A stretch of DNA of 64,000 nucleotides, taken from Nocardioides rotundus (GTDB lineage Bacteria; Actinomycetota; Actinomycetes; Propionibacteriales; Nocardioidaceae). The stretch is taken from the NCBI RefSeq assembly GCF_019931675.1, contig NZ_CP082922.1, positions 1,937,001 to 2,001,000 on the forward strand. The letters run 5' to 3'. Below are positions 35,466 through 61,309 of the stretch, piece after piece. Each line of letters opens with the position of its first letter. Position 1 is the first letter of the stretch. Below the pieces are notes generated by a model. That model was not told the origin of the DNA. It ran no database searches and saw only the letters and a program-made list of their open reading frames with translations. The position numbers and the translations under genes are program-made.

Positions 35466-38153
<2,688 letters not shown>

Positions 38154-38238
38154 GCCCTCACTCCTCGAAGGTTGCGTGTGGTCCCCATCTTGCGCCTCGC
38201 ACGCCACCCGCCGGAAGCCGGGTGCCCGCCACGAAGTC

Positions 38239-38252
38239 TCTTGACATCAAGA
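38239..38252. promoter_or_regulatory. Palindromic candidate operator upstream of acnA
   Basis: TCTTGACATCAAGA is a perfect 6-bp inverted repeat with a 2-bp spacer, 86 bp upstream of the acnA start. It overlaps the stop codon of the methyltransferase remnant. The position and symmetry suggest a transcription-factor site controlling acnA. The regulator is not identifiable here. Confidence 0.5.
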
Positions 38253-38330
38253 TATCACGGGCTCGAGGAGCGCGACACACTCCACGTGGTGCGTCATCGG
38301 GAACACACCGGCGAGGTTACGCGGGATTGC
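38247..38330 (-). pseudogene. 3' remnant of a TRAM/RumA-type class I SAM RNA methyltransferase
   Basis: Read leftwards, the sequence encodes FPMTHHVECVALLEP plus VIS and a stop at 38247. This is the hallmark C-terminus of 23S rRNA m5U-type methyltransferases (FPMTHHVE motif), which commonly precede acnA in actinobacteria. Upstream of it (beyond about 38304) the reading frame continues for only a few non-family residues before repeat-rich DNA. The rest of the gene is missing from this side. It is either truncated or left as a duplicated 3' end by site-specific integration. Confidence 0.75.
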
Positions 38331-38474
38331 GAATCTTTGCGCTCCACTGCGATCGGCGGCCAAACGTGGCCGCTGATCTGCAACTATGCCGATTTCAGGC
38401 GCTGATGGCGTCGGGGGCCGATTGCGGGTCTTTGCGAATCAAAGTGCGCCCAAAGTGCGCCCTGCTGTCAGCAG
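38325..38474. repeat. Repeat cluster at the island's left edge (possible att region)
   Basis: GATTGCGAATCTTTGCG (38325-38341) and GATTGCGGGTCTTTGCG (38420-38436) are direct repeats matching at 15 of 17 positions. AAAGTGCGCCC occurs twice in tandem (38441-38451, 38452-38462), followed by the palindrome CTGCTGTCAGCAG (38462-38474). This is the look of integrase arm-binding sites beside an attachment core. The remainder of the gap, 38475-38774, shows no supportable gene or motif. Confidence 0.5.
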
Positions 38475-38774
38475 TCTCCGACGCTCGCAAAGGACCGCAG
38501 GTCGCGTGGACCCTCCCCAGCGTCAGCTCGTCGCCGAGGGCGGCAACGACCGAAGTGTGGAAGTGAGCCCATGCGAGTAGGCCCTCGGCAGTGCCGCGCG
38601 CTTTGTATGGCCCACGAGACGGGGCCGTAGGTCACGACATGCCGCGGGCACCAGTCGGCCACCAGCAGCGTGGGCGGCATCCTGCGCCGACGATTCGGCC
38701 GACGTCATCGATCTCCTTCGATGGCGCAACCGCTAAGGGCGCGGTCGGCAGCCGGTGCGTGTCGAAATGACCAT

Positions 38775-39716
38775 TCAGGTCCAGACCATCACGTCGTGCT
38801 GCAGGTACTCCCACGGGTCGTGACTGAGCGCGGCCGGCACCGTATCGAGGAGCTCGCCCGACACTTCTTGGCAGATGAACTGCGTGATGCCCAGCACCGT
38901 GGCCTCGACCTGATACCAGGTCCGGACCTGGGCGGCGCTGGCAGCGAAGGTCAGCCCGGCGACGGCGTCCGGGCTCACATGAGTGAGGACGTTGCGGCGC
39001 GCAACCCACTTGATCCAGTTCACGCGGAGACGTTCCCAGATGTGGAGGGGCGCCTGGGGCTTCGACTCCCCCAGCAGCAGGTCGATCGAATACTGCAGGC
39101 CGCGATTAGGTGGAGGAGGAGGTGGTGGGCGCAACGCCTCAGCCAACCCGCCAGTCCGCACGAAGAGCGCCGTCCCCGCCAACTCGGGCCACGGCTCTGC
39201 GACCCCTTCCAGATGACAGACCTGCTCGACGAGACCCCGATACGCCTCGGCGATATGAGGGTCACTGGGCTCGTGCGCGAGCACCATCGGCAGGCCCGGG
39301 TCGAGGGCTCCGGCAACCATTCCGAGGGTCCATCCCCGAATCACCGGTGACAAGGATGGCGGGCGCGCTCCGACCAGGGGCGCCTCGGAAGTCATACGGC
39401 GCTGCACTGCGTCGAGCAGTCGGCCGGAAAGGTCGTACGAATCTCCCGTGTTCCTAAGACCCGCCAGCAACCACGTCGCGAGGAGCGAATGCTCGACGGG
39501 TAGCGCGTAGTCATGGACCGTCGCAGGCTCCAGCAGCGCGGCGATGTCGGCCCACTTGGCGTCGTAGTCGTCGGCGCGGTCGCGGAGCCAGTCTGAGTCA
39601 TAGCCGATCTCGTCGAGGCGGTCGTCGAGCACGTCCCCGATGCGCCTGTCCGCGAGAAGCAGCCGGTAGAGCTCGGCGAAGACCAGTGGCGAGAGAGTGC
39701 AGGTCAGCTCTGCCAC
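38775..39716 (-). CDS. Candidate HEPN-domain protein in a restriction-like module
   Basis: A 313-residue, mostly helical protein with no named family I recognise. The C-terminal helix 'HIWERLRVNWIKWVARRNVLTHV' contains Arg241-Asn242-x3-His246, the R-[N/D/H]-x3-H signature of HEPN ribonucleases, followed by another long helix as in that fold. A seven-proline run (about 197-203) separates this from the N-terminal 195 residues. The GTG start lies inside the end of the specificity-subunit gene (13-base overlap), so it is translated with it. A role as the toxic effector of the module is inferred. It could instead be a structural or immunity partner. Confidence 0.6.
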   Translation of the reverse strand: MAELTCTLSPLVFAELYRLLLADRRIGDVLDDRLDEIGYDSDWLRDRADDYDAKWADIAALLEPATVHDYALPVEHSLLATWLLAGLRNTGDSYDLSGRLLDAVQRRMTSEAPLVGARPPSLSPVIRGWTLGMVAGALDPGLPMVLAHEPSDPHIAEAYRGLVEQVCHLEGVAEPWPELAGTALFVRTGGLAEALRPPPPPPPNRGLQYSIDLLLGESKPQAPLHIWERLRVNWIKWVARRNVLTHVSPDAVAGLTFAASAAQVRTWYQVEATVLGITQFICQEVSGELLDTVPAALSHDPWEYLQHDVMVWT

Positions 39717-40864
39717 AGGACCTGCTCCAGGCGACGGGCAAGTGGCCGAGCGTCCGGCACCACGTCCAAGGTTAGCGCGTCATGCGGTACCGGAATGCGC
39801 CTCAGATCGGCCAAGCTCAGCGACGGGATCGTCGATCCGGTCAAGAAGAGCTGGCGGATCCGGTATGCGGCTTGGCTATTGAGATACTGCGCCAGGGCCG
39901 GGCCGAGGTCTCGGTTTCGGAGCCGGGCAACGATCACGTGACTATCTGCAACGACCGGCCGATCTGCAACGCGCGCGTGGGCCTGGTTGCCCAGCGCCGC
40001 GACGAGCAGGTCACCAGGCTCGGCCACAACCGCCGAGCCGCCATCCGGGGAGAGCCACCGTCGGGGTGGCTTGCCGCCGAGCATTGAAACGTCTGCCACC
40101 GGCAGGTAGCCGGGTGCCTCCGAATTTAGCGCTCCGTCTCGGGTGTTCCGCCCACGCCGAATCTCGCCGAAGTAGTCGCCAAGCGGCTCGCCATTGGTGA
40201 GTTCAGCCGGGTTCGGCGTCGCCAGGGCGATCCGCCATTCGGCGACCCGGAGGTCAGTCGTCTGCCACCAGGTCTCGACCGCCTCTTCCTCGGCAATTCG
40301 GGTGGTGGCGTGCATGTCGCGCAGCCGGTCAGCAATCGACCGCAGCTCCGCGAGAGGAGGCACCGGCACCGTCGCGTCGATGACCGTCTTCACATCCATC
40401 GAGGCGACGACTGTCCCGGAGGTGAGCGTCGCACGCCATCGTTGGCCCGACTCGCAGCTCAGGAGACCCCAAAGCCACAGCCCGAGAGTCTGGTCGCCAG
40501 CTCGGAGTGCATGGAAGCGCGAGGACACCAAGGCGCCGCGAAGGTGAGCACTGACCAGCAGGGCGGGACTCGTCCCCGTCCGCGGGAGCAGGACATCACC
40601 GTCCCTGAGCTCCGCGCCCACTTGGTACACCGAGCCCTGGTACTTCCGGCCCCGGCGCCGTACTCCCCCGCTTACGGGGTCAATGTCGCCAGGACCGATA
40701 ACCGGCGACCCGGCCTCAGCAAATGATCTGGGTGCGAGACGAGAAGCGATGTCGCGAACTTCGACCTGGCGAAGCTCGACCGGCCAGCGAAACGCCTCGG
40801 CGGTCAAGCGGCCCGGATCCCAGCTCGGCTCGAAGCGGAGGTCGAGGATTGCGCTCGAAAACAT
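39704..40864 (-). CDS. Restriction/modification specificity (S) subunit with two target-recognition domains
   Basis: A 386-residue protein with the two-fold layout of HsdS-type subunits. TRD1 (about 30-170) ends in 'DVKTVIDATVPVPPLAEL'. A connecting helix follows, then TRD2 (about 215-360) with 'GEPLGDYFGEIRRGRN', 'GYLPVADVSMLGG' and 'SLSLADLRRIPVP'. Such proteins dictate DNA sequence recognition for a methyltransferase partner. It starts 4 bp after the methyltransferase-like gene and overlaps the HEPN-like gene. Confidence 0.78.
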   Translation of the reverse strand: MFSSAILDLRFEPSWDPGRLTAEAFRWPVELRQVEVRDIASRLAPRSFAEAGSPVIGPGDIDPVSGGVRRRGRKYQGSVYQVGAELRDGDVLLPRTGTSPALLVSAHLRGALVSSRFHALRAGDQTLGLWLWGLLSCESGQRWRATLTSGTVVASMDVKTVIDATVPVPPLAELRSIADRLRDMHATTRIAEEEAVETWWQTTDLRVAEWRIALATPNPAELTNGEPLGDYFGEIRRGRNTRDGALNSEAPGYLPVADVSMLGGKPPRRWLSPDGGSAVVAEPGDLLVAALGNQAHARVADRPVVADSHVIVARLRNRDLGPALAQYLNSQAAYRIRQLFLTGSTIPSLSLADLRRIPVPHDALTLDVVPDARPLARRLEQVLWQS

Positions 40865-40868
40865 CGGC

Positions 40869-42137
40869 CTACTCGCCGTCGAGGTGCTCGAGCGCAGCGT
40901 TCATGACTGCGCCAGTCTCGGAGAGCTGCGACCGCCAGTCCTCGCCGAGCTGCGCGACGAAGGTTTCGCCCGGTGGCGCGCTATCGATCACGAGGAGGAC
41001 TGCCCGCACTCCCGTGTTCACCAATGCGCCAGAGGGAAGCCCGATCAGGGCACCTACCCGGAACTTGTTGGCTAGGTACCGGCGATACGGCTCGAGGTTT
41101 TGCCGGAAGGTGATGCCATTCGGCAGGAGCATCACGGCGCGACCGCCGGGGCGGAGCTGCCGAACGCACAGGTCGAGCGCGGCGGTCTCAAGCTCGCGAG
41201 CCTGCGTTCCGTCGAGCAAGGTCCACGGCCGCATCGTCCGGACCCCGAATGGCGGAGCAGCAACGACACAGTCGGCGCTCGGCAATGCGCCTTCGAACGA
41301 GTCGCCGACCGTGACGTTAGCCAGCAGTGGCGCGGTCCGCGCGATCTGGCCGGCAAGCTCTGCGAGCTCAGCGTTGATCTCTTGGCCAATGAATTCAGCG
41401 GGGCCCTCCGTGGCAGTGGCACGCTCCAGCGCAGCCCACAGGAAGTTGCCGATGCCGCAGAACGGATCAAGCACGGTGCCGCCGAGCCGGGTGCCGAGAA
41501 GGCGAGCAACAGCATCGGCGATCTCGGTCGTCGTGGCGTGCTCTCCCGCCCAGCGCATTCGGTCCATGAAGCCCGCGACAGCACGGCGTCTGGCTTGCCA
41601 CAAGACATCGGGCCGGACCGGAACGAAGTCCCCTTGGGAGGTCTCGATGCCGGGAAGGGCTGTCTCCATGAAGAGCTCGGCGGATGGAAAGAAGATATCC
41701 GCCTGGCCTTTGCCCCGCCTGCTGTCGGCTTCGTACCAAAGCCGGTCGGTCAGCAGCGAGGTGGCGAGGCCGGGGTCAGTGATCCAGCCTCGACCGTCAA
41801 TGGCCGGGCCAGCCGGACCGTCCACAGGATCGAAAGTGCGCAGACTCCGGTCGGCGCGGAACCACTGGCCGTTGAGGACGGCGTAGTGCTCGACGGTACC
41901 GAGCAGCTCTCGCGCCTGCAGGAGATGCGGGAGGGTTAGCTCGGGCTTGGCGTGGGCGCCGTTCTTCGCCTCAACGACGATCCATGGCACCAGGTCGCCA
42001 TCCGCGTTGGCGGCGTACCCAACGGCGTCGGCACGCATCTTTGTGTCTCCCAGCTTGCTGTCGAGCTGGACCACCCGATAGCCCGCGGCCTCCAGTGCGG
42101 CACGGATCTGACCACGTGAATCTCGTTCGTTCGCCAT
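40869..42137 (-). CDS. N6-adenine methyltransferase-like protein with ExK N-terminal domain and altered motif IV
   Basis: A 422-residue protein. Residues about 5-100 resemble a PD-(D/E)xK nuclease, with Asp37 and Glu56-Ala-Lys58 in 'RADAVGY' and 'PWIVVEAKNG'. The HsdM-like methyltransferase domain has SAM motif I 'LDPFCGIGNFL' (224-233), but motif IV reads A-A-P-P-F-G (293-298), lacking the Asp/Asn/Ser required before PP[YF]. Methylation may therefore be lost. A fused nuclease/methyltransferase with a separate S subunit recalls BcgI-type IIB systems, though this protein is shorter. A strong GGAGGGAGGG ribosome binding site and an 86-bp gap set it off from the upstream genes. Confidence 0.75.
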   Translation of the reverse strand: MANERDSRGQIRAALEAAGYRVVQLDSKLGDTKMRADAVGYAANADGDLVPWIVVEAKNGAHAKPELTLPHLLQARELLGTVEHYAVLNGQWFRADRSLRTFDPVDGPAGPAIDGRGWITDPGLATSLLTDRLWYEADSRRGKGQADIFFPSAELFMETALPGIETSQGDFVPVRPDVLWQARRRAVAGFMDRMRWAGEHATTTEIADAVARLLGTRLGGTVLDPFCGIGNFLWAALERATATEGPAEFIGQEINAELAELAGQIARTAPLLANVTVGDSFEGALPSADCVVAAPPFGVRTMRPWTLLDGTQARELETAALDLCVRQLRPGGRAVMLLPNGITFRQNLEPYRRYLANKFRVGALIGLPSGALVNTGVRAVLLVIDSAPPGETFVAQLGEDWRSQLSETGAVMNAALEHLDGE

Positions 42138-42223
42138 CTACTTCCCTCCCTCCTGGTTCAAAAGAGCCGCAGAACGTACCACGGGCAGTCTCAGCCGGCA
42201 ACGCTCCGGGCCGCGCACATCAA

Positions 42224-43012
42224 TCACTCCTCGTCGCATGGTGTCCCGAGGTCCGAATCGATGTTGAGAACTCGCACGCGCGGCGTCTGTTGGGCGATGA
42301 GGACGGCTGCATTCTCGGCGAGGCGGCGGGCCGACTTGAGGCGGAGGTCAGCTGGGCCACTGCCGTCGACAGCCACTTCAGTGGCGATCGCGAAATCGAT
42401 GGATCCACCGAACATCAGATGGCGGGTGATCTCCGTATGGATCCGCCGACTCGTCCGTTGGGTCGACCGATCGGTCTTGGCGTTGCGGTAATTCCGAGCC
42501 CTGCGGGCGAGGTTCTGCGATTCGCCGATGTAGTAGGTGCGTGTGCCGCCTTCGTCCAGGCCGAAGTCGTAGCGGTACAAACCCGGTTCCGACGGCAGCC
42601 GCGGAAACAGTGGCAGGCCCCGGTCGTCGAGCACGATGGCCCCCGCTTGGCGCCAGGTCAGGGCAACCGACACGGTCAGGGTCTCGAGTTCGGGGAGGTC
42701 GGCTACGTCGACGCTCCCCGACCGCGATGCCCCCGGGCGACGAGTGCCTGGCTGCACCGCCTTCGATCCCGTGCCGACAGTGAACCCCAGCTTCGCCAAC
42801 AGACGTCGGCTGTTCTGAGATTGGAAACTCGTGCGCGCCAAGCCCGTCGCGAGCGCCATGACCTGCTTGACCGGCCACCGGACGCCGTCGATGTCGACCC
42901 AGTACTGATCGACCGACTCGGGATCGTGCTGTTGCAGCCGACGTCGTACGTCGTCAGCTGTCAGGTCGAATGACCTGCCGGCCAAGGTGAAAGATACGCT
43001 CTCAGTGCTCAT
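42224..43012 (-). CDS. GIY-YIG nuclease-domain protein
   Basis: A 262-residue protein. The N-terminal 80 residues form a small module with 'WPVKQVMALATGL' and 'SRRLLAKLGF', of a kind often found in front of nuclease domains in restriction-like proteins. After a Pro/Arg/Gly linker comes a GIY-YIG domain: 'GLYRYDF' (144-150), 'TYYIGESQNLARRARNYR' with the catalytic Arg near 171, and Glu233 in 'RLAENAAVL'. ATG at 43012 overlaps the HerA stop by one base, so it is translationally coupled to HerA-SIR2. The sizeable N-terminal module probably targets the nuclease. Confidence 0.8.
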   Translation of the reverse strand: MSTESVSFTLAGRSFDLTADDVRRRLQQHDPESVDQYWVDIDGVRWPVKQVMALATGLARTSFQSQNSRRLLAKLGFTVGTGSKAVQPGTRRPGASRSGSVDVADLPELETLTVSVALTWRQAGAIVLDDRGLPLFPRLPSEPGLYRYDFGLDEGGTRTYYIGESQNLARRARNYRNAKTDRSTQRTSRRIHTEITRHLMFGGSIDFAIATEVAVDGSGPADLRLKSARRLAENAAVLIAQQTPRVRVLNIDSDLGTPCDEE

Positions 43013-45033
43013 CAGAACGGAGGCTCCTCGCCGGTCCACTCGCCGCTGCCGGCGAAATCGTCCCAGGGGTCGGAAGGGTCGGTCGGGTCGTTCGCCGCCG
43101 CGCCGGAGCCACCGTCATCTGGGTCGGTGCCGGGGATCCAGCCGTCTGCCAAGGTCATCGTCTTGTTGTTCGGCTCGTACTCAGCCGGCAGCTTCTCGAT
43201 GTCGACGACGACCGGCACCTGCGTCGACAGCCCGGAGAGGACGCACGAGCCTGTCGGAAGGATCGGCAGGGACTCAAACGACACGCGGTCCAGGTACGCG
43301 ACAGCTCGCTCGATGGCCATGATGTCGAGGTTGTTGACCAGGCGGTGCAGGAAGTAGTTGTGCAGCTGGGAAATGATCGTCTCGGAGATGTCGTGCGGTC
43401 GCTGGCTCGCGATCGTCAAGAAGACGCCGAACTTCCGACCCTCCTTGATGATTTCCTCGAAGGTCTCCAGCCGGTAGTCCTTCCATGCCTCGCTCTCGCG
43501 GGACGACACGTTCGACAGAATGTTGTGGGCCTCGTCGACGACGATGTTGAGGTAACGCGACGGATCGCCATCGCGCTTCTTCTCGTCGTAGAGCTGGCGG
43601 CAGATGAGGAGCGGGATGACCTTGCGCATCTCGACATTGACGTCGCGCAACGAGATCACGGTCAATGGCTTGTCCAGCAGCGTGCCGTCTGAGACTTCGA
43701 TCAGGCGCTTCACGCGTGGCATGCGCGACTCCAGCCGCTTGATTAGCGGGCCGAGGTGCTCGCGGTTCGCGTAGCCGTGGAAGATGTCGGAGTAGTACTG
43801 CAGCACGAGTTTGAACCGGATGCGGTCAACGCTCTGCAGGGCGCTCGGATCGATGCCAAGCCCACCGATGCGGGTGTAGGTCAGCTCTTGGAAGTAGTAG
43901 TCGTACGACGGGTCATTGGCGTAGACGTTGATGCCGTTGGCTTGCCGGTAGTAGAAGCACTTGTTCTGCCCGTGGTAGCCGAGGTTTGACTGGATGTCAC
44001 GGATGTAGTCGCCCAGGGCATCAGGTGCCTCCCCGCCCATGCAGCCTTCGACTTCCTCGAGGAACTTGACGACCAGGCCCTTGTCGAGCGCTGGGTCGGA
44101 ACTGCGGATGGCTGCATAGACGATGCCGGCGACTGCGGCCGCGAGATCCTCGCCCGTCTCCAACCGAGACTCCCAGTAGTCGCTCTGGAGCGTGCGCTGC
44201 ACGAACGGCGCTTGGGTCTTCTCCGTTGCGTCAAGGAGCACCGTCCAGATGACCGGGTCCTCCATCGCCTCCTTGCTCAGAGGAAGGCGGTCACCTTCGT
44301 CGGTCCGAGTCGAGAGCACGAACTCGGTCTTCAGGTCGTTGTCGGTGAGTACTGAACTGCTCTGCTCCCCGGACGCGGCACCAACCCGGTTGACGTACTC
44401 GCCGTTGAAGTCGATGACGAGCACCCGCGCCCGCGTCTTGAACGCGTCCGAGTCGCCGTAGGCCGCGAAGAGCTCGTGGTAGAGCTTGGTCAACGTGTAG
44501 GACTTGCCGCTGCCGGTGTTGCCGAAGATGCCGATGTGGCTGGCGAAGAGGCTGTCGACGCCAACCCGAACGTCCTGTCCCTTCTCCATCGCCAGGCGGC
44601 CGATCGTGAGTGCGCGGTCCTTCGGGTCGACAAAGCTATGGATGCGATCGAACTCGTCTTCGTCGAGCAGGAAGCACTCGTTGCCAACGAGCGGCAGCTC
44701 GCGTACACCGCGGCGGAACTGGCCGCCGGACATGAAGCCGATGAGGCTGACAGTTAGGATCCGTTCGACCCGGTCTCGGGAGCTGCGGTAGCTGTCGTCG
44801 CCGCGCGCCTCAGCAACCTCTTCGCCATCGACCTTGCCGACCAGCTCGGCGAAGCCCTTGCTGATCTTGAGGAAGCCGCCGACACCAACGTTGCGCAGCA
44901 GCCGACCTTGGTAGATCAGGTGCGCACCGTTCTTGGCCTTGTCAACGCGAATGCGAACCGTCCGGCCCTGAATCCCGACAACCTCACCGACGCGAAAGAC
45001 GGCATCGCGTGTGAGCAGTTCGTGGTCAATCAT
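43012..45033 (-). CDS. HerA-family ATPase/DNA translocase (DUF87) of a SIR2-HerA defence system
   Basis: A 673-residue protein with an N-terminal HAS-barrel (about 1-75) and the HerA/FtsK-type ATPase core. Walker A is GNTGSGKS at 171-178, Walker B is 'LNIVVDEAHN', and 'FLTIASQRPHDISETI' is the sensor region. HerA ATPases form hexamers and pair with nuclease or NADase effectors. The start overlaps the SIR2 stop by eight bases. SIR2-HerA pairs are known anti-phage systems that deplete NAD+ or cut DNA. The acidic C-terminal tail (GSGAAANDPTDPSDPWDDF) is probably disordered. Confidence 0.9.
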   Translation of the reverse strand: MIDHELLTRDAVFRVGEVVGIQGRTVRIRVDKAKNGAHLIYQGRLLRNVGVGGFLKISKGFAELVGKVDGEEVAEARGDDSYRSSRDRVERILTVSLIGFMSGGQFRRGVRELPLVGNECFLLDEDEFDRIHSFVDPKDRALTIGRLAMEKGQDVRVGVDSLFASHIGIFGNTGSGKSYTLTKLYHELFAAYGDSDAFKTRARVLVIDFNGEYVNRVGAASGEQSSSVLTDNDLKTEFVLSTRTDEGDRLPLSKEAMEDPVIWTVLLDATEKTQAPFVQRTLQSDYWESRLETGEDLAAAVAGIVYAAIRSSDPALDKGLVVKFLEEVEGCMGGEAPDALGDYIRDIQSNLGYHGQNKCFYYRQANGINVYANDPSYDYYFQELTYTRIGGLGIDPSALQSVDRIRFKLVLQYYSDIFHGYANREHLGPLIKRLESRMPRVKRLIEVSDGTLLDKPLTVISLRDVNVEMRKVIPLLICRQLYDEKKRDGDPSRYLNIVVDEAHNILSNVSSRESEAWKDYRLETFEEIIKEGRKFGVFLTIASQRPHDISETIISQLHNYFLHRLVNNLDIMAIERAVAYLDRVSFESLPILPTGSCVLSGLSTQVPVVVDIEKLPAEYEPNNKTMTLADGWIPGTDPDDGGSGAAANDPTDPSDPWDDFAGSGEWTGEEPPF

Positions 45034-46246
45034 CGAGTTCGACCAGCGGTTCTTGCACCGAGACCTTCACTTCGACCGACTGCTTGGGCGCCGACGACGA
45101 TGGCGCGACCTTCGCGAAGAACTCGGAGGTGACGGTCGGCAGGTCGTAGCGCAGCGGCTGCTCGCCCTCCGCATCGGCGGGCGGCGCGATCAGCCAGATG
45201 TTGCTATTGGTGATTGGGTAGCCGTCGAAGGCATGCTCAATGTCCGTTGCGGCGTGCGGGCTGTAGGCGAAGATGACGATCTGGAGCGTTGGGTTGGTAC
45301 GAGCTGCGCGCACCATGAGCTCCCGGATGTGCTCGTCGCGGCAGGAGAAGCCGATGACGAACAGGGCGGCATTCTCCTTCTCCAGCTCGTTCGAGAAGAG
45401 CCGCAGCAGGTCGTAGTAGTTCTGGTTCAGCACGGTCTGCTGGAACTTCGCCTTCGTCGGATTGACGATGGCCAGCTGGCTGTAGGCATCCAAGAACGGC
45501 GCCAGCAAGGTCGTAGCGCTGGCTGGGACCGGGCCGGCGAGCAGCGTCTCTAAGGTCGTGTTGGCGCCAACCTCAGCCAAGATCGCGTCGACCTTGTCCA
45601 GCTCTTCCGCGACTGCGGCTACCTTTCGCAGCCGGATGTCGAGACCAATCTCGGGACGGCTCGCCTCCTCCCCCATGGCTGACCAACCGACCGAGCCATG
45701 GAGCTTGAGCAGGTTGAAGGTGGGTACCTCGGAGAGGTTGTCATATTGGAGGCTGCGCCGCGAGACGACCGATCCGAAGTTGGACGTGCTGAAGCACGGC
45801 TGCAGCCGTCCTGCGAAGCCATCGTTGAGGTGGACCTGGAGGCTCTCGCTGGCTATCTCCGTCGTCAGGTCAACATTGGTCGTGAAAAGGTTGACCTGCT
45901 TGTTGAGCAGCGAACTGCGGCGCTCGAGAAGCAGGCGGTGGATCGTCTGAAGAAACGCCTCATACCGCTCCAGGAGCTGGGGCGCCTCAGTCCCGCTCCG
46001 GTCGAGCAGGTCGTTGTTCTTGAGCACCACACTGCGGAAGAAGCCCGAGTAGATGGAAGCTCGGGCGTAGGCCTTCGCATCCTCCGCGGCGTCGGAGGAG
46101 TCCAGGCTCGTTAGCAGGTTCTCGATGTCGCCGAGCAAACGGAACATTGGAGCAGACGCGCCGGCCCCGAACAGGAACGACAGATGGGCGTCCTGCACCA
46201 GATCACGCAGGCGCTCGGCCGTCAGCTCCTTGGCGACGAGGGTCAT
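45026..46246 (-). CDS. SIR2-domain NADase-type effector of the SIR2-HerA system
   Basis: A 406-residue protein with the SIR2 NAD+-binding motif '[12 protein letters not shown]' (Gly27-Ser31), '[12 protein letters not shown]' (Asn124, Asp126), the catalytic His183 in '[11 protein letters not shown]', and '[15 protein letters not shown]'. All canonical residues for NAD+ hydrolysis are present. The C-terminal part is helical. The ATG overlaps the hsdR stop (ATGA), so the gene is read from the same message as the type I system. Confidence 0.9.
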
Positions 46247-49200
46247 GGGGACGCTCCCCCGTCGACGGAGGCATAGAGCTCCGCCTGCTCAAGGACCAGC
46301 TCGATCGCCTTCTCCTCCAGGTCGGGCGGGTAGTCGTACTTGGCGAGCAGCCGCCGGACCTTGGTGCGCATCGCGGCGCGGACCGAGTCCTTGAGGTTCC
46401 AGTCCAGCGTGGCGCTTTGGCGAATCGAGGTCACCAGTTCCGCGGCCATCTTCTTCAGGGTGTCGTCACCCATCTGCAGTACCGCCGCATCGTTCTGCAC
46501 GATGGCGTCGTAGAACGCAGCCTCGGCCACCGACAATCCGAGCGCCTCGTGCCGCTGGCTCTGGGTGCGCATCTCCTTCGCCAGCTTGACCAGCTCGGCG
46601 ATGATCTCGGCCGTCGTCAGGCTGCGGTTGGTGTAGCGGTTGATCGCTTCCTCGAGCAGCTCGGAGAACTTCCGGGACTGGACGATGTTAGTGCGCTGGA
46701 TAGTCTTGATCTGGTCGTTGAGCAGGCGGCGCAGCAGACCCAGCTGCAGATTGGGCTTGTCCTTGTCGACCAGCGAGTCGAGAAACTCGTCGCTGAGGAT
46801 CGACAGCTCCGGGGTGTCGATTCCCGCCAGCTTGTAGATGTCCACCACTTCGTCGGCACCGACGGCTTCGTTGACCAGCTGCCCGATAGCCGTGTCGATC
46901 TCGGCAGCGCCCACTCCGCCGCGCCCTGCGTCCGGGTTCTGGATCTTCAGGATGGCAGCGCGCACGTCAGCGAAGAGCCGGGCGTCGTTTCGAATCGCTG
47001 CCGCTTCGTCACGGGAGCCAGCCAGGGCGTAGGCCTTGGCGAGAGCGAGCACCTGGTCGATAAAGCGCTTCGTGCGGTCGGGATCGCCCATAACGAAGTC
47101 GAGCACCTTGGCATGCTCAGCGAGCCGCTGACCAGCGGGCAAGTCGGGTCTGGAGTTGAACTCGCAGCCGTGCAGCAGCCCGCTGATGACGTCGTGTTTC
47201 TCCAGCATGGCGTCGACGATCTCGTCGATCGGCACGCCGGCCTGGTCGCGGTCGCTCGGCGAGTACTCGACCAGTGCCTTCTGAAGGTTCGAGAAGACAC
47301 CGATGTAGTCGACGATGAGGCCACCAGGCTTATCGCGGAACGTACGGTTGACGCGAGCGATGGCCTGCATGAGCCCAGCGCCTTGCATCGTCTTGTCGAC
47401 GTACATGGTGTGCATGCTGGGCGCGTCGAAACCGGTCAGCCACATGTCGCGGACGATCACGATTTCCAGCGGATCCTCAGGGTTCTTGGCACGGGCCTTG
47501 AGGTCCTTGCGGACGTCCTTGCTGTAGATATGCGGCTGGAACTCGGCAGGGTCAGCCGCCGAGCCGGTCATGACGACCTTGATCTTGCCCTGAGTCGGAT
47601 CGTCGCTGTGCCAGTCGGGGCGAAGCGCGACGATCTTCTCGTAGAGCCGCACCGCGATGCGGCGGCTCATGGTGACGATCATGGCCTTGCCGATCATGGC
47701 CTCGCGGCGCTTCTGCCAATGCTCGACGATGTCTTCGGCGATCAGGTCCAGACGGTCCTCGGCACCGACGATCGCCTCCAGTCGGGCCCAGCGAGACTTG
47801 GCCTTGTCAGCCACGTCCTGCTCGACCTTCTCCGTGATCTCCTCGGCCAGCTCATCGAGCGCTGCGTAGTCCTCCTCGGAGAGCGCGATCTTGGCGAGGC
47901 GCGACTCGTAATAGATCTTGACGGTGGCACCGTCCTCGACGGCACGCGTCAGGTCGTAGACGTCGATGTACTCACCGAAGACGGCCTGCGTGGACTTGTC
48001 GCCCGATTCGATCGGGGTGCCCGTGAAGCCGAGGAAAGTCGCGCCAGGCAGCGCGTCACGCATGTGCTTCGCGAGGCCAGCCTTGAGCCGGCCGTCTTTG
48101 TCGAGTGACTCCGTGAAGCCGTACTGCGAGCGGTGCGCCTCGTCTGCGACCACGACGACGTTGCGGCGGTCGGTCAGGACCGGGTTGGCGTCGAGGCCTT
48201 CCTCGGGGCGGAACTTCTGCAGCGTCGTGAAGATGATGCCGCCACTGGCGCGACGCAGCAGAACGCGCAGGTCAGAGATGGAGTCCGCTTGGACCGGCTT
48301 CTCGGGCAGGATCTCCGCCGGAGCGAAGACCTCTCCGAAGAGCTGGTCGTCGAGGTCGTTGCGGTCAGTTAGGAATACGAGCGTCGGGTTGTTCATGCGG
48401 GCGTCACGCATGATCTTGGCGGCGTAGAGCAGCATTTCGATGCTCTTGCCACTCCCCTGCGTGTGCCACACGACGCCACCGCGACGGTCGCCGCTCGGAC
48501 CAGAAGCCTCAACAGTTGACTCGACGGCGGCGTTGACGGCCCAGTACTGGTGGTACTTCGCAACCCGCTTTATGAGGCCAACCGGCTCGTCACTGAAGAC
48601 GATGAAGTTGCGGACGATGTCGAGGAAGCGTTTCGGCTCGAAGACGCCCTTGGTGAGCACCTCAAGCGCCGGAACTCCACTCACGACGTCGCGGCCGTCG
48701 ATCGTCTTCCAGGGCGCGTAGTGCTCGAACCCGCCCGAGAACGAACTCATGGCTGCGCTGGTGCCGTCCGAGATCACGGTGACGGCGTTCGGCGTGAAGA
48801 TCGCCGGGATGTCGGAGCGGTAGGTTTGGATCTGGTTCCACGCGTTTTTGAGGGTGGCGTGCTCGTCAGCCAGGTTCTTCAGCTCCAGCAGGCCGAGCGG
48901 GATGCCATTGACGAAGATCAAGACATCGGGCCGGCGGTTCTTGTTGCCGACGATGGTGAACTGGCTGACCGCGAGGAAGTCGTTCTTCTCCGGGTGCTCC
49001 CAGTCGATCAGCAGCAGCGGGATGGTGCGCACCTGGCCATCGGCATCGCGGTACTCCACCGGGACACCGCGGGTCAGCAGGTTGTGGACCCGCAGGTTCT
49101 CCGCCACCGCGCTCTGCGACTCAGCTCGCTCGAGGCGCTTGACGGCCTCTTCGATGAGCTCCAGGTGGTCCGGGTTGAGCCTGCGGGCTGCTTCGCGGAT

Positions 49201-49350
49201 TCGGTCGTACAGGTAGACCTGCTGGAAGGACTCGCGTTCGGGGCGGAGACCGTCGGGCGCGATGTTGGGTCCAAACTCGGTCGAGTAGCCGAGCTCGCGG
49301 AGGTAGTCGAGTGCTGCCTCCTCGATGATGGACTCGTTGATGGCCGTCAT
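46243..49350 (-). CDS. hsdR: Type I restriction endonuclease, R subunit
   Basis: A 1035-residue HsdR. The N-terminal PD-(D/E)xK nuclease has Asp142 and Glu156-Leu-Lys158 in '[20 protein letters not shown]'. The SF2 translocase has Walker A '[12 protein letters not shown]' and '[13 protein letters not shown]' (DEAH). The helical C-terminal domain docks to HsdM/HsdS. It is intact, but its methyltransferase partner is disrupted, and restriction needs the full R2M2S complex. It overlaps hsdS by four bases. Confidence 0.95.
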
Positions 49351-50483
49351 GCGGCCTCCCCTTTTCCTCGGGCAGCGAGGTCTGACACCGTCACGCGGCC
49401 CGAAAGCAGTTCAGGGATGAGTGCGTCGCGAAGACGCCGCACCTCCGCCGACTCGTCGCGCGCGGACTGCACCGCGTCGACCAAAGAAAGAGCCTGCTCC
49501 AGCACGGCGCTATCAAGGGCGGCGACATCAGGTACCTCAATGCCTAGCAGGTCGTCAGGACGGACGCGTTGATGGCTCCCCGACGTGCCGGTGACTCGAC
49601 GCACTAGTTCTGTCATGAACTTGGGGCTCCGAACGGCGAGCCAAAGGCCCGCGAGTGATGCACGATCCGAAGCGGTGAGACAGCTGAATTCGGTCGAGGC
49701 CACCGCCGGGACACCATCTCGAGGCTCTGCCCACCACGTTCGGTTAGTTCGCGGGTTCAACCGTGAAACGAGGATCGCGGGGACCTCCAGCAGGAACTTG
49801 TTGCTCATGATCGCGGCACCAGGCTCGCTCACTGGCGTGGCATCCACGTCAAATGCGGGCAAACTGTAGTGATCGACGGCTGACGTGCCGTAGCTCGCTG
49901 GATTCACTTGGGCTCGCGCAACGGATGCGACAGTCCCCAAGGGCACGGGCGGCGCTTCGAAGGCAACCCTGGCTGCGAGAACGTCAAGCAACTCCAGACA
50001 AATGTCGGCTGCACGCGTGTTAGAGGCCACCTGGTCATCAAGAGTTCCCAGGAGGTCTGCGATCTCAATCTGCTCCGCGATCCCTGGCGCATTGATGGGG
50101 ACGGACGCAAGCGACTTCTGGGTCAGCTTGGGCTGGGTAGAGCCCGTGAGGTAACCGCCGATATCCGTGGCTTGGAGCACATACGACAGGAAACGAGTGT
50201 CATTATCCGAGTTGCCCTGCAGAACGTGGGCATGGTTGTTGACCCAGTATTTCCCGTCGGCGAGAAACGCGATTGGAGACTTCCGGCTACGGAGATTCTC
50301 GCCGTCCTCCGCCACCAGGAGGTGCAGTCCCTCGAAGATATAGTCCGCCACGTGGTCCACCACACCGCTGGCGCCGTAATAGGGGTAGGGCCCCGCCTTG
50401 CGGTCCGACGACTTGATGGGCACCCGGCGTCGGTCGAGATTCAGTGTTCGCTCGCCGAGCGGCTTGGTTTCCCAGGAGCTCAT
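49347..50483 (-). CDS. hsdS: Type I restriction-modification specificity subunit
   Basis: A 378-residue HsdS with two target-recognition domains (about 1-170, including '[20 protein letters not shown]', and about 190-360) and two conserved helices ('[18 protein letters not shown]' and the C-terminal '[20 protein letters not shown]'). It sets the bipartite recognition sequence, which cannot be predicted from the protein by eye. The ATG overlaps the hsdM stop (ATGA). Confidence 0.92.
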
Positions 50484-51673
50484 TGACGCGCCTCGCCGAA
50501 CAAGCCGCGGACCTTGTCCCGAATGATATCTGCGCGCTCGAACTCCTCGAAGAGCGCCTCCGTCAGGCGTGCAACCTTTGCATCGAAGGCCTCGTCGTCA
50601 GCCTCGGCTTCCTCGGTGCCGACGTAACGACCAGGAGTGAGGACGTAACCGTGTTCCGCGATTTCATCGAGCGTGGCTACGCGGCAGAAGCCGGGAATGT
50701 CCTCGTAGTCGCCATCGTGGTTGCGCCAGGCGTGATACGCGCCGGAGATCTGAGCGATGTTGTCATCCGTCAGAACCTGGATGCGACGCGTCTCAGCGAC
50801 ACCGAGTTTGCGCGCATCGATGAAGAGAACCTCGCCGGTGCGCTTGCGGTGTCCGTTGCCGCCTCGATCCTTGGAGATGAACCAGAGACTCACCGGAATC
50901 GGGGTGTTGAAGAATAGCTTGCCGGGCATCGCGACCACGCAATCGACGAGATCGGCGTCCACGAGCTTCTTCCGAATCTCGCCTTCGCCTCCGCTCTGGG
51001 TGGAGAGGGACCCGTTGGCGAGGACGAATCCGGCCGTACCGCGAGGCGACAGATGGTGGACGAAGTGCTGCACCCAAGCGAAGTTTGCGTTGCCCTGGGG
51101 CGGGGTCCCGTACTCCCAGCGCTTGTCGCCGTCGAGTTTGGCGTCCCACCAGTCGCTCACGTTGAACGGCGGATTGGCGATGACGAAGTCTGCGCGCAGA
51201 TCCGGGTGGAGGTCCTGGGTGAAGGTGTCAGCAGAACGCTCGCCCAGATCAGCCTCGATCCCGCGGAGGGCGAGGTTCATCTTGGCAAGCTTCCAGGTGG
51301 TGTCGGTGAACTCCTGGCCATAGACCGAGATGTCCGTGCGTTTGCCGCCGTGGGCCCTCACGAACTCAGCGGACTGCACGAACATGCCGCCCGAGCCACA
51401 AGCAGGGTCGTAGACGCGGCCGTGGTACGGCTCCAGCATCTCGACAAGGGTCTTGACGACGCTGCGCGGCGTGTAGAACGCCCCGGCGTCCTTGCCCGTC
51501 TCCTTGCCGGCGAACTGGCCCAGGAAGTACTCGTACACACGTCCGAGCACATCGTCGCTGCCGTGGTCGTCGGTCTCGGTGAAGCCGATCGACCCGATCA
51601 GGTCAACGAGGCGCTTGAGGCGACTCTTGTCCAGTCCCTCCCGGCCGTAGTTGCGCGGCAGGACGCCCTTAAG

Positions 51674-53381
51674 CCCGGATCCACCGATGAGTTTGGTGAC
51701 GTGAGCGTGGCGTAGAACGAGAATGCCCTTGCAGGGCAGGAGAATCTGAGTTCTTCAGGCAAAGATTCACACCGGCAGCAAGGGCATCTCTGGGATGAAA
51801 CTCTCTCACACGGTTCGAGCGACGTCGGCAGCCTTCGATGATCCGAATCTCGTGTCGACTGGCGGCCTGGTCCCGGTGCTCGCGTTGGCCGACCGTGGTG
51901 GGCTGCGGGATCTGGCTGATACCCACCTCACGGTGCCCACGCACAAGGGCGCGAACGCCGGACTGAAGGTCGCCTCGCTCGTCGGTGGGATGGTCGCCGG
52001 CGCGGACTCGATCGATGACATGGCGCTGCTGCGGCACGGCGGGATGGGCCGGGTTTTCGCCCGCGCCTACGCGCCCTCGACGTTGGGCTCGTTCCTGCGA
52101 GCGTTCACCTTCGGCCACGTTCGTCAGCTCGACGCAGTCGCATCGAGGTTCCTGATCGCGGTGGCCGGACTCACCCGGCTCCTGGGCGCCGGGACCGGTC
52201 TTGGCGCCGGCACCGAGGAGTCAGGAGCCGGTGCCGGGTACGCGTTGCTCGACGTCGACGACACGATCATCGAGGTCCACGGCCACTCCAAGCAGGGCGC
52301 CGGGTTCGGCTACTCCGGTGTGCGCGGGCTCAACGCACTGCTGGCCACGCTCACGACCGCGACGACGGCGCCGGTGATCGTGGCCCAGCGGCTCCGCAAG
52401 GGCGCGGCGGGGTCGCCACGCGGCGCGAAGCGGCTGGTCGGCGACGCGGTGAGGACCGCCCGGCGACTGCTCGGCACGGGTCAGCTGGTCTTGGTCCGGA
52501 TGGACTCGGCGTTCTACGGCCGCGGACCAGTCCACGCCGCCCTGGTCGGCGGCGCCGATGTGTCGGTCACGGTGCGGATGGACAAGGCCGTCAAGAAAGC
52601 GATCGCCACAATCGGCCACGACGCGTGGACCACCATCGAGTACACCGACGCCGTCTTCGACGAAACCTCGCAGAAGTGGATCTCTCGCGCCGAGGTCGCC
52701 GAGATTCCCTTCACCGCCTTCGCCGCGCAGAAGAAGTCCGAGCAGGTGCCCGGGCGGCTGGTGGTGCGTCGGATCCCCGACTTCAACGCCGAGAAGAACA
52801 AGGCAGCCGGCCAGGACACCCTGTTCGACGTGTGGCGCTTCCACGCGTTCTTCACCACCGCCGACCCCGTGCTCCTGGACACCGTCGCGGCGGACAAGAC
52901 CCACCGCCATCACGCCGTCATCGAGCAGGTCCACGCCGACCTCAAAGGATCCGCGCTGGCCCACCTGCCGTCCGGAGTGTTCACCGCCAACGCCGCCTGG
53001 CTGGTGCTCGCCGTTATCGCGTTCAACCTCACCCGCGCCGCAGGCACCCTCGCCGCACCAGACCTGGCACGGGCGACCACCGCGACGATCCGACGCAAGC
53101 TGATCACCGTGCCCGCGAGGGTAGCGACCTCAGCGCGCCGGATCACCCTGCACCTGCCCCAAGCCTGGCCCTGGGAGAACGCCTGGACCGCCCTGTTCGA
53201 CCGGGTCAGCGACCCGCCGCCCGGCCTCGCGGCCTGACCCACCCAGCAGCCACCGCTGCGCGACCCGAGGACCAAAGGACGACCCGGACAGCAAGGTCCG
53301 GCAGATCCCCACGCCCACAGCCGCTCACCCCACGGCGATCCGGATCACGCGATTACCACCAAGCTCATCGGTGGATCCGGG
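51674..53381 (+). mobile_element. IS1380-family insertion sequence, copy B (in hsdM)
   Basis: A 1708-bp element with the same 18-bp terminal inverted repeats as copy A (14324-16031) and a 5-bp target duplication TTAAG (51669-51673 and 53382-53386). It is inserted antisense to hsdM. Both targets, CTAAG and TTAAG, share the YTAAG pattern. Confidence 0.95.
51795..53237 (+). CDS. IS1380-family transposase (copy B)
   Basis: A 480-residue DDE transposase identical in translation to the copy at 14445-15887. The acidic triad segments (LLDVDDTIIE, VRMDSAFYG, VIEQVHADLK) are intact. A hairpin sequestering the start region is present upstream, as in copy A. Read-through from this rightward gene is antisense to hsdM. 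Confidence 0.93.
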   Translation: MKLSHTVRATSAAFDDPNLVSTGGLVPVLALADRGGLRDLADTHLTVPTHKGANAGLKVASLVGGMVAGADSIDDMALLRHGGMGRVFARAYAPSTLGSFLRAFTFGHVRQLDAVASRFLIAVAGLTRLLGAGTGLGAGTEESGAGAGYALLDVDDTIIEVHGHSKQGAGFGYSGVRGLNALLATLTTATTAPVIVAQRLRKGAAGSPRGAKRLVGDAVRTARRLLGTGQLVLVRMDSAFYGRGPVHAALVGGADVSVTVRMDKAVKKAIATIGHDAWTTIEYTDAVFDETSQKWISRAEVAEIPFTAFAAQKKSEQVPGRLVVRRIPDFNAEKNKAAGQDTLFDVWRFHAFFTTADPVLLDTVAADKTHRHHAVIEQVHADLKGSALAHLPSGVFTANAAWLVLAVIAFNLTRAAGTLAAPDLARATTATIRRKLITVPARVATSARRITLHLPQAWPWENAWTALFDRVSDPPPGLAA

Positions 53382-53778
53382 TTAAGGGAGCGGTTCTCCC
53401 TCTCGATGAGGTCCATCGCGTCGTCGATGACCGTGCCGATCTTGGACGCGTCGCCGGCGCTGTTCTGGATGTACTCCCAGCGTGCCTCGGCAGGTACCCA
53501 GAAGACGCTGTGACTGCGGTACTCGTCGCGGTCCTCGAGGAAGGTCTGACGACGGGCCTCGTTCGGGATGTAGTCATCCGAATTCGGGTCCGAGAGCGCC
53601 GCCTCGATGTCCTTGTACCGAGCCTCGAAGCGGTCCGAGATGTACTTGAGGAAGACCAGACCGAGGACGACATGCTTGTACTCGCTCGGCTCCTGGTTAC
53701 CCCGAAGCGCGTCGGCGGCCTCCCAAAGGCGCTGCTCCAGCGTCTTGGCCTGCGCCGCCTTCTTGGCTGCGCGCGCCA

Positions 53779-54157: not shown

Positions 54158-54271
54158 ATGACCGGATTTCTGTCGTGGGAACCGCCGTTCGAGAGCGATG
54201 AGACCGGCGCCGTGCTTGGTGCGCTGGTCCGGCTGCGCACGAGGTACCGTTCCGTGTCGAGGAGGTCCTGA
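54158..54271 (+). pseudogene. Possible N-terminal fragment of a DinB/DUF664 protein
   Basis: A 37-codon frame, 'MTGFLSWEPPFESDETGAVL' and then 'GALVRLRTRYR', resembles the start of DinB/DUF664-type proteins (WEPP...DE...LLGALDRLR pattern). It then ends abruptly. It is probably debris from an earlier gene cut during island assembly. The match is from memory of the family and is weak. Confidence 0.35.
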
Positions 54272-54302
54272 AACCGTCGGCCGACTCGACCACAATGGGA
54301 CT

Positions 54303-55097
54303 ATGTCATCGACGAGCGAGCGTCTGCCGCACCGAGTATCGAGCCTCGCCATCGACATGTTCGCGCGGGAGACCGGGTTCAGCGGGCCAGAGATTCACAG
54401 CATCTTCGCCGAGCACACCGATGCTCTCGGCCCCTATCAGGGGTGGGGCGGCGGGAGCCAATCCCGCTGGCAAATCTTCGAGGCAGGCTTGAACTCGCTC
54501 CCCCTGCAACAGCAGAGGGCGCTGCTGCTCGAACTCTGCGACTACGACGGCTCCGTCAGGCACGGCATGCCAGCACCAGCGCGAATCGAGAAGCTGCGTT
54601 CACTCCTGCTGGCCGATGGCACCCCCGGTGCAGTAGCAGCCGGAGAGGGGCTAACCAAGCTGGCTGATTGGCAAGCGGTCACGAAGTCGTGGACGGTCGC
54701 GTTGAGCAAGGTGACCACCGATCCCGACGGGGCGATTACGGCCACTCGGACGACGCTGGAGAGCATCTGCAAGCACATCTGCGACGAGCGCTCCGTGACC
54801 TATGAGGACTCGTGGGACCTCGCCCGGTTGTACAAGGCCGCGGCCGCGGCGATGGAGGTCTCCCCAGATCAGCACACCGAGCAGATCATCAAGCAGATTC
54901 TCAGTGGAGCCGCGACTGTCGTGGGCGGACTCGCCGGGATGCGGAACGCACTGAGCGATGCGCACGGCCGCGGTAAGGGGTCCGTAGGTCCTGCTCCGAG
55001 GCACGCGAAACTTGCGGTCAACGCGGGATTCGCGATCGCTGGCTTTCTGATCGATACCCACATCGAGAAGCCAGCTCGAAAGGCGGAGGCGAATTAG
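54303..55097 (+). CDS. Abortive-infection (Abi C-terminal/HEPN-like) protein
   Basis: A 264-residue protein. The N-terminal part (about 1-100) is helical with 'FARETGFSGPEIHSIFAEH'. The C-terminal part has 'SICKHICDERSVTYEDSWDLARLYKAA' and 'GLAGMRNALSDAHGRGK', the RN-x5-H pattern (Arg214, His221) of Abi_C/HEPN domains. Such proteins often act as RNases in abortive infection. It is divergent from the hsdM operon and thus part of the same defence locus. Its stop overlapped the stop of the small membrane gene now at 57316 before the IS21 insertion. Confidence 0.75.
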   Translation: MSSTSERLPHRVSSLAIDMFARETGFSGPEIHSIFAEHTDALGPYQGWGGGSQSRWQIFEAGLNSLPLQQQRALLLELCDYDGSVRHGMPAPARIEKLRSLLLADGTPGAVAAGEGLTKLADWQAVTKSWTVALSKVTTDPDGAITATRTTLESICKHICDERSVTYEDSWDLARLYKAAAAAMEVSPDQHTEQIIKQILSGAATVVGGLAGMRNALSDAHGRGKGSVGPAPRHAKLAVNAGFAIAGFLIDTHIEKPARKAEAN

Positions 55098-55199: not shown

Positions 55200-56453
55200 G
55201 TGTTGGCAGTGGAGGACTGGGCGGAGATCCGGCGGTTGCACCGCGTGGAGGGAGTGCCGATCAAGGTGATCGCCAGGTCGATGGGGATCTCGAAGAACAC
55301 GGTGCGCAAGGCGCTGCGCGATGACGGGCCGCCGCGCTACGAGCGGGTCGGGCGTGGGTCGCTGGTTGATGCGGTCGAGCCGCAGATCCGAGAGCTGCTG
55401 CGGGTGACGCCGACCATGCCGGCGACGGTCGTGGCCGAACGGATCGGGTGGGAACACTCGATCCGGATCCTGCGGACCCGGGTCAGCGACCTGCGGCCGG
55501 TGTACCTGCCGCCGGACCCGGCATCGCGCACGACCTATGAGCCGGGTGAGCTGGCGCAGTTCGACTTCTGGTTCCCCGACATCGAGCTCCCCGTCGGGTA
55601 CGGCCAGATCCGGACGGCAAAGCGGCTGCCGGTGATGACCACGGTGACCGGTTACTCGCGGTGGTCGGGCGGCTTGTTGATCCCTTCCCGCGATGCCGCG
55701 GATCTCTACGCCAGCTGGTGGCAGCTGCTGTCGACCCAGCTGCAGGGCGTGCCGAAGACACTGGTGTGGGACGGCGAAGGAGCAGTCGGTCGGTGGCGCG
55801 CCCGCCAACCCGAACTCACCGGCGATTGCCAGGCGTTCCGTGGCGTGCTCGGCGCGAAGGTCTACGTCTGCAAGCCAGCCGATCCCGAAGCCAAGGGCAT
55901 GCTCGAGCGGCTCCACGACTACCTGGAGAAATCGTTCCTGCCCGGTCGCACGTTCACCTCACCAGAAGACTTCAACACCCAGCTTGCCGCGTTCTTCGTG
56001 AGAGCCAACGCCCGCCGGATGCGGGTCCTGGGCTGCAGCCCGGGTGACCGGGTTGCCGCGGACCGTGCCGCGATGATGCCCCTGCCGCCGGTGCCGCCCG
56101 AGGTCGGCTGGCGCAAGACCATGCGGCTGCCGCGCGACCACTACGTCCGGCTCGATTCCAACGACTACTCCGTTCACCCGGCTGTGGTCGGGCGGCGGAT
56201 CGAGATCCACGCCGACCTCGAACGAGTGTGGGTGACATGTGAGGGCGCGATCGTCGCCGACCACGCCCGCGTGTGGGCCCAGCACCAGACCATCACCGAG
56301 TTCGAGCACACCGTCGCTGCCAAGCACCTGCGGCACGGTCGGGCGGACCTGCTGCGCCCGGTCGCCGACGCGGTCACCGGCGAGGAGGTCGAGATCCGCT
56401 CACTCGGGTTCTACGACCAAGCACTCGGCGTGGTCGACGGGGAGGTGTCCTGA
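55200..56453 (+). CDS. istA: IS21 transposase
   Basis: A 417-residue IstA with an N-terminal HTH ('IKVIARSMGISKNTVRKAL') and an rve integrase core with Asp in 'AQFDFWFPDIE', Asp in 'LVWDGEGAV' and Glu in 'EAKGMLERLHDYLE'. A GTG start is used. It overlaps istB by one base. Confidence 0.94.
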   Translation: MLAVEDWAEIRRLHRVEGVPIKVIARSMGISKNTVRKALRDDGPPRYERVGRGSLVDAVEPQIRELLRVTPTMPATVVAERIGWEHSIRILRTRVSDLRPVYLPPDPASRTTYEPGELAQFDFWFPDIELPVGYGQIRTAKRLPVMTTVTGYSRWSGGLLIPSRDAADLYASWWQLLSTQLQGVPKTLVWDGEGAVGRWRARQPELTGDCQAFRGVLGAKVYVCKPADPEAKGMLERLHDYLEKSFLPGRTFTSPEDFNTQLAAFFVRANARRMRVLGCSPGDRVAADRAAMMPLPPVPPEVGWRKTMRLPRDHYVRLDSNDYSVHPAVVGRRIEIHADLERVWVTCEGAIVADHARVWAQHQTITEFEHTVAAKHLRHGRADLLRPVADAVTGEEVEIRSLGFYDQALGVVDGEVS

Positions 56454-57274: not shown

Positions 57275-57315
57275 CCGAGGGGGTCAGTTTTCGATTGCCG
57301 CGAGAGGGTCAGTTT

Positions 57316-57648: not shown

Positions 57649-57759
57649 GAGATCTCCTTCGGTCGGGGCTCACCTCCTGCCTACGCCCGGCATCCGACAG
57701 TCCGGCCGCCCCATCGCCCCTACTGGGGATATCTCGGCCGTAACTACCGCTGTGTACCG

Positions 57760-61287: not shown

Positions 61288-61292
61288 GGCCG

Positions 61293-61309
61293 CACACCTC
61301 CTTGGTGTG
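61293..61309 (-). promoter_or_regulatory. Hairpin over the relaxase ribosome binding site
   Basis: On the coding strand CACACC-AAGGA-GGTGTG is a perfect 6-bp stem whose loop and 3' arm contain the AAGGAGG of the relaxase. It is placed so that folding would hide the Shine-Dalgarno sequence. Confidence 0.5.

Follow-up and report, generated by a model that had tools for sequence, protein, structure and literature searches.

A conserved three-gene cassette in actinobacteria pairs a degenerate nuclease-methyltransferase and a specificity subunit with a HEPN-like protein: a candidate anti-phage system

How a complex built like a restriction-modification (R-M) enzyme could escape self-damage without methylation, and what such a complex would sense, are questions made testable by a three-gene unit in Nocardioides rotundus. 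The trio lies on the minus strand of a 64,000-nucleotide stretch (the window) of a genome consisting of a single 4.09-Mb contig, and encodes in order a predicted nuclease fused to a degenerate N6-methyltransferase (protein 1), a specificity-like (S) subunit (protein 2) and a HEPN-like protein (protein 3). An earlier note on this DNA had described three co-directional genes with 4-bp and -13-bp spacing behind a very strong ribosome binding site. These details proved correct: a gap of 4 bp separates gene 1 from the S gene, the S gene and gene 3 overlap by 13 bp, and a Shine-Dalgarno-like run precedes gene 1. The interpretation given in the note was upheld in part, since the trio is real and recurrent but its supposed unlikeness to type IIB enzymes was not borne out. 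The trio is likely to be an anti-phage defence cassette, a proposal that draws on gene order, conservation, the loss and retention of motifs, predicted folds and a frequent defence-gene context.

The methyltransferase motifs were followed in 121 sequences, comprising protein 1 of the window and the best 120 of its 134 homologues. The S-adenosylmethionine (SAM) motif DPFCGIG, the motif IV variant APPF and the N-terminal D...ExK pattern named in the earlier note were all located (Table 1), and alignment across homologues confirmed that motif IV is degenerate in the family as a whole. Asparagine or aspartate never occupied its first position (0/121) and serine did so in 8 sequences; the only fit to the [DNS]PP[YF] form of active enzymes was SPPF, in 2/121. 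The prevailing forms were APPF (41), APPL (40), APPV (9) and VPPF (6), others being rarer, with phenylalanine in the fourth position in 53 sequences and leucine in 46. The PP turn was nonetheless kept (P295 120/121, P296 121/121), motif I was intact family-wide (D224 in 120/121, G228 and G230 in 121/121), and residue 253 was D or E in every sequence. As a control, HsdM of the adjoining type I system carried NPPF in the four loci checked (4/4). We hold with high confidence that methylation has been lost in the protein 1 family, to judge from these sequences.

Residues 197-385 of protein 1 matched Pfam N6_Mtase (E 8.6e-15), and its AlphaFold2 (AF2) model (predicted local distance difference test score, pLDDT, 90.6) fold-matched type I M subunits and the RM subunit of BsaXI. 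The N-terminal domain of the model has the topology alpha-beta-beta-beta-alpha-beta, with D37 in strand 2 and E56-x-K58 ending strand 3. These nuclease residues are mostly kept (D37 109/112, E56 109/114, K58 101/114, gapped sequences excluded). Protein 1 is likely to bind SAM, to be unable to methylate and to possess an active nuclease, each of the three properties being predicted.

The S subunit matched Specificity_I models in two stretches (residues ~85-186 and ~280-361), in agreement with the two target recognition domains (TRDs) that had been proposed; its Pfam Methylase_S score, 21.6 bits, was just under the 22-bit cut-off. Conservation among 45 S sequences (that of the window and 44 of 49 homologues, those longer than 350 aa) extended over both TRD halves and was weakest in blocks 141-180 and 361-380. 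When the type I systems adjoining the trio in the window, L009, L056 and L057 were compared, HsdM (without its N-terminal part) was 75-80% and HsdR 85-96% identical, and HsdS only 26-53%. In the same four loci the trio S was 45-91% identical, tracking protein 1 (46-89%) and protein 3 (38-88%). Because the trio S tracks its partners while HsdS diverges, it is not under the diversifying regime of HsdS, and its specificity is probably fixed, given conservation along both TRDs and co-divergence with its partners. Without self-methylation, a fixed S that read an ordinary short site would find that site throughout the host genome, so either cutting would be gated or the trigger would not be plain sequence. 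A target shared by the trio S and the HsdS of its own locus was considered and received no support, the two being only 26-28% identical over their length in the four loci. S also gave two weak PDB matches named Esub1 (E 0.0075 and 0.0082); a literature search on that name returned nothing relevant.

In the third protein the R-N-x3-H motif was near-invariant among the window sequence and its 63 homologues (R241 61/62, N242 56/62, H246 61/61, gapped sequences excluded), and the family thus carries the Rx4-6H motif of the HEPN superfamily. The earlier note had the protein ending in a helical region with this motif; the motif is present, but it lies within a helical region of residues ~150-290 of 313 and not at the terminus. 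The HEPN fold suspected for this 313-residue protein emerged from a fold comparison of its predicted model: the model has a HEPN-like helical fold and HEPN toxins ranked top, though Foldseek alone returned no significant match. No ABC ATPase domain was detected, the protein matching no Pfam family. Protein 3 is likely an active HEPN ribonuclease (RNase).

Homologue searches, in each of which only about 8000 candidates were scored, returned 134 homologues of protein 1, 49 of protein 2 and 63 of protein 3; among the matches listed, all that carried a species name were actinobacterial. Twelve loci were defined by matching the protein 1 profile with an E value of 1e-60 or lower. At this threshold the profile was found in 7/341 genomes of the window's family, in 1/396 of a phylum sample (the window's own) and in 4/220 genomes of the family of a Paractinoplanes genome, that genome counted; two other families gave 0/301 and 0/186, with few candidates per genome scored and without a positive control. 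The protein 3 profile matched 2/394 genomes of a class sample. A scan of genome contigs gave, among the matches listed, 39 loci, of which 3 were relatives of the trio and the remainder partial matches. The named hosts are Nocardioides albidus (L009), Paractinoplanes ovalisporus (L010) and Streptomyces silvae (L011).

Gene order was the same in 12/12 loci, 11 of them intact, and the recurrent linkage anticipated by the earlier note was thereby recovered. The S gene and gene 3 overlap by 13 bp in eight loci and by 10 bp in four, and the junction of gene 1 and the S gene ranges from -4 to +6 bp. For at least 22/63 HEPN clusters, the longest contig was identical in size to that of a listed protein 1 or S cluster. 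Mean identities over 66 locus pairs were 51.6, 50.5 and 49.5% for protein 1, S and protein 3, and the pairwise identities of the three correlated at r 0.94-0.95, a value as high being reached in 0/5000 permutations. With the decayed locus L011 excluded (55 pairs) the means were 53.4, 51.8 and 50.6% and r was 0.95-0.96. Purifying selection was indicated by ratios of nonsynonymous to synonymous substitution rates (dN/dS) of 0.07-0.11 for L056/L057 and 0.17-0.31 for L067/L068. The gene 1 starts used for L010, L067 and L068 may lie too far upstream, which would also bear on the L067/L068 ratios. Gene starts were set by an open reading frame rule, by tblastn or by hand; that of gene 3 in L068 was placed by analogy with L067 and confirmed as GTG. 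By these comparisons the trio genes are kept as a set.

Mobile-element sources were also searched. For protein 3, neither the plasmid nor the phage collections yielded a match. The plasmid matches of protein 1 were ordinary methylases (15 of 21 listed) at 25-31% identity, none with 80% coverage, together with one partial match of a distant homologue, and three viral-contig loci held partial matches only (34-38% over at most 88 residues).

The note had set the trio apart from BcgI-type IIB enzymes. On the contrary, genes 1 and 2 resemble the RM and S components of BsaXI and BcgI: a chain predicted to fuse an N-terminal PD-(D/E)xK nuclease to a methyltransferase is accompanied by a separate S subunit with two TRDs, and the BsaXI RM subunit, part of an enzyme of RM + S architecture (PMC11997821, in part), aligns with the protein 1 model over residues 1-422. 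BsaXI chains exceed 900 residues, as against the 422 aa of protein 1, and the trio departs further from type IIB enzymes in its family-wide degenerate motif IV and its obligate HEPN partner; cleavage by the trio is putative. The separation from classic type I systems did hold, since the trio has no translocating HsdR of its own (hsdR stands beside it in only 5/12 loci), has lost motif IV, and has an S subunit with TRDs that are conserved and not hypervariable.

The tRNase PrrC is kept silent by the type I R-M enzyme to which it is linked, and becomes active when the phage protein Stp neutralises that enzyme (PMC2610378, in part). Like PrrC with the type Ic system EcoprrI, the trio places a HEPN RNase gene beside R-M-type subunits and would follow a hold-and-release logic. 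A type I R-M system adjoins the trio in 5/12 loci. Unlike PrrC, protein 3 has no match to an N-terminal ABC ATPase, and its partner is its own non-methylating RM-S pair instead of a functional type I enzyme. According to part of PMC3710099, HEPN proteins of at least 16 clades show linkage to R-M systems, whose subunits have been proposed to restrain the RNase. The trio shares the R-M-like neighbourhood with the HEPN families covered there, but its HEPN protein matches no Pfam HEPN model (0/36 family members) and its partner methylase is degenerate. The top PADLOC match of protein 1 was mad2 (E 3.6e-27), and mad5 ranked second for S (E 5e-10); membership in MADS was rejected, the scores of 39.7 bits against 720 for MAD2 and 50.2 against 400 for MAD5 falling far under the curated NCBIfam cut-offs. 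No model of such a trio in PADLOC 2023, NCBIfam 2026 or Pfam 2025 was matched by the three proteins, and the trio was not found in one open-access library, outside which preprints and most subscription papers fall. HEPN genes beside R-M systems are known; the combination of a methylase degenerate throughout its family with an S that does not diversify and an invariable HEPN partner is a new form of this arrangement.

These features suggest a scheme in which proteins 1 and 2 would assemble into a type IIB-like complex of nuclease, methyltransferase and S, probably (RM)2S, able to bind DNA and SAM and unable to methylate. Protein 3 would be a HEPN RNase held inactive by, or near, this complex. 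During infection something engaging the complex would switch on the DNA nuclease, free the HEPN RNase, or both, and the freed RNase would cut RNA and halt the infected cell. The RM-S pair would thus serve as sensor and HEPN as effector, the fused nuclease being a possible second effector. Since S barely diversifies, the trigger is probably conserved: it would be an anti-restriction protein of the phage, a modification of DNA or a structure in it, and not just a site that lacks methylation. Two of these, phage anti-restriction proteins and modified DNA, are candidates compatible with a complex that is fixed and does not methylate. We put the chances of this whole scheme, an RNase-armed pseudo-restriction sensor with PrrC-like logic and a conserved trigger, at about even. 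A further version is tentative and rather doubtful: the pseudo-methyltransferase/S complex of fixed specificity may be a bait, either for modified phage DNA or for anti-restriction proteins that mimic DNA and bind to M-S cores, with engagement unleashing the HEPN RNase in a stand-alone, methylation-free form of the PrrC logic. The non-methylating recognition complex coupled to a nuclease and/or an RNase, as the earlier note had it, is consistent with the loss of motif IV, the kept nuclease residues and the HEPN-like fold; the coupling itself is conjectural. A whole family has given up the methylation motif yet kept the cofactor motif, the nuclease residues and a non-diversifying S. If the scheme is true, it would illustrate how a restriction-type enzyme, paired with a likely RNA-cutting enzyme, can function without self-marking. 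The trio is also a compact three-gene unit suited to phage assays, and in this analysis its HEPN family was matched by none of the Pfam models.

Several observations weigh against this scheme. The HEPN assignment depends on one predicted model with a moderate Z score, and searches of Pfam and the PDB by sequence recovered no HEPN match. SAM binding by protein 1 may be a relic. In L011 (10001-13410) a frameshift disrupts gene 1 and an early in-frame stop interrupts gene 3; at this locus, therefore, the cassette is dispensable. In L010 the four proteins scanned gave no PADLOC match and the neighbours are a histidine kinase, a universal stress protein and a sugar kinase, a housekeeping setting from which the trio appears able to stand alone. 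Finally, 7/12 loci have no adjoining type I system in the stretch examined, and type I R-M is therefore not an obligate partner.

Other explanations were weighed against the same data. The altered methyltransferase pocket might read an already modified base, the complex cutting phage DNA that bears a conserved modification and HEPN acting as a back-up effector. Such modification-dependent restriction would accommodate the loss of the catalytic N/D alongside a retained PP turn and SAM motif, the retained nuclease residues and an S as fixed as a fixed modified target would predict; it is nevertheless unlikely, as it leaves the obligate HEPN partner unexplained and the modified-base pocket is hypothetical. 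It is likewise improbable that the trio is a still-methylating R-M system, in which APPF/APPL methylates otherwise or protection of the sites comes from a different host enzyme, and type IIB restriction is joined by an accessory HEPN gene. The intact SAM motif, the type IIB-like architecture, and the serine and phenylalanine found in 8/121 and 53/121 motif IV sequences speak for it. Against it stand the complete absence of N or D and the frequent leucine in that motif, the NPPF kept by the neighbouring active-type HsdM, the failure of the trio S to diversify, and its low identity to the HsdS of its own locus, which lends no support to a shared target.

A non-defence role is also unlikely. The trio would then be a regulator or a toxin-antitoxin-like module for mobile-element maintenance, with the R-M-like pair as antitoxin of a HEPN toxin. 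A HEPN toxin restrained by linked proteins is indeed a known toxin-antitoxin scheme (HEPN-MNT), of which solved structures appeared in the fold comparison. Recognised defence genes near 8/12 loci argue for defence instead, conserved nuclease residues and a DNA-recognition subunit would be superfluous for a simple antitoxin, and the plasmid and phage collections held no match to protein 3.

Table 1. Coordinates of the trio, its motifs and neighbouring genes in the window
Feature	Position	Strand	Basis
Gene 1, PD-(D/E)xK nuclease + degenerate N6-methyltransferase fold, 422 aa	40869..42137	-	Pfam + AF2 model
Gene 2, S (specificity-like) subunit, 386 aa	39704..40864	-	Two Specificity_I stretches; conserved over whole length in 45 sequences
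Gene 3, HEPN-domain protein, 313 aa, predicted RNase effector	38775..39716	-	
Strong Shine-Dalgarno-like run before gene 1, AGGAGGGAGGGAAGTAG-ATG	42144..42154	-	Sequence reading
N-terminal nuclease-like domain of protein 1, residues 1 to ~105, with D37, E56, K58	41823..42137	-	AF2 topology + conservation
SAM-binding motif I DPFCGIG, residues 224-230	41448..41468	-	Conservation in 121 sequences
Degenerate motif IV APPF, residues 294-297	41247..41258	-	Conservation in 121 sequences
TRD halves of S	~40340-40807 and ~39785-40207	-	
R-N-x3-H motif RNVLTH of protein 3, residues 241-246	38979..38996	-	Conservation tally
Neighbour type I hsdR, outside the trio	46243..49350	-	NCBIfam hsdR 585 bits, cut-off 285
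Neighbours between hsdR and the trio: SIR2 46246-45026, HerA 45033-43012	43012..46246	-	PADLOC SIR2 E 2.3e-59, HerA E 5.1e-167

Upstream of the trio on the minus strand of the window lie a weak GIY-YIG protein, HerA, SIR2 and then hsdR, hsdS and hsdM. SIR2-HerA is a known kind of defence pair. The product of 42224-43039, between HerA and the trio, gave the weak GIY-YIG match together with an N-terminal match to the SCO5918 family, both below cut-off. The GC content is 0.72 across bases 1-34000 and 0.64 across 38001-52000.

Neighbours at the other loci were scanned selectively, up to 10 proteins at a time, and the presence of hsdR was judged by BLAST of the window's genes within ~10 kb. The hsdM-hsdS-hsdR genes were found upstream of the trio in 5/12 loci (window, L009, L056, L057 and L058), and gene 1 begins 2 bp past hsdR in L056 and L057. 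The trio as a fixed appendix of type I R-M was rejected, as the seven remaining loci show no such system beside it in the stretch examined. Other defence genes near the trio are QatA and QatC in L054, a type I-E Cas7 in L067 and DpdD in L068; L055, L011 and L069 gave merely weak or candidate-family defence matches.

The interval between hsdR and the trio varies, holding an AAA ATPase in L009 (7934-9874), a YgjP-like metallopeptidase in L058 (8267-8989) and nothing in L056 and L057. In the window hsdM is split by an insertion sequence at 51667-53388 (DDE_Tnp_1_4 transposase, 51795-53237) with 32-nt inverted repeats that are 88% complementary. Beyond it a plus-strand gene (54198-55097) encodes a protein with an Abi_C domain (abortive infection C-terminus). 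An IS21-type istA/istB pair and a TrwC-type relaxase of 1257 aa, at 55200-61533, point to a mobile element next to the defence genes. Homologous genes near the trio in L054 (19079-19687) and L055 (6445-7092), plausibly nadD, have products carrying RIGVMGGTFDPIHHG and perhaps mark a shared insertion spot.

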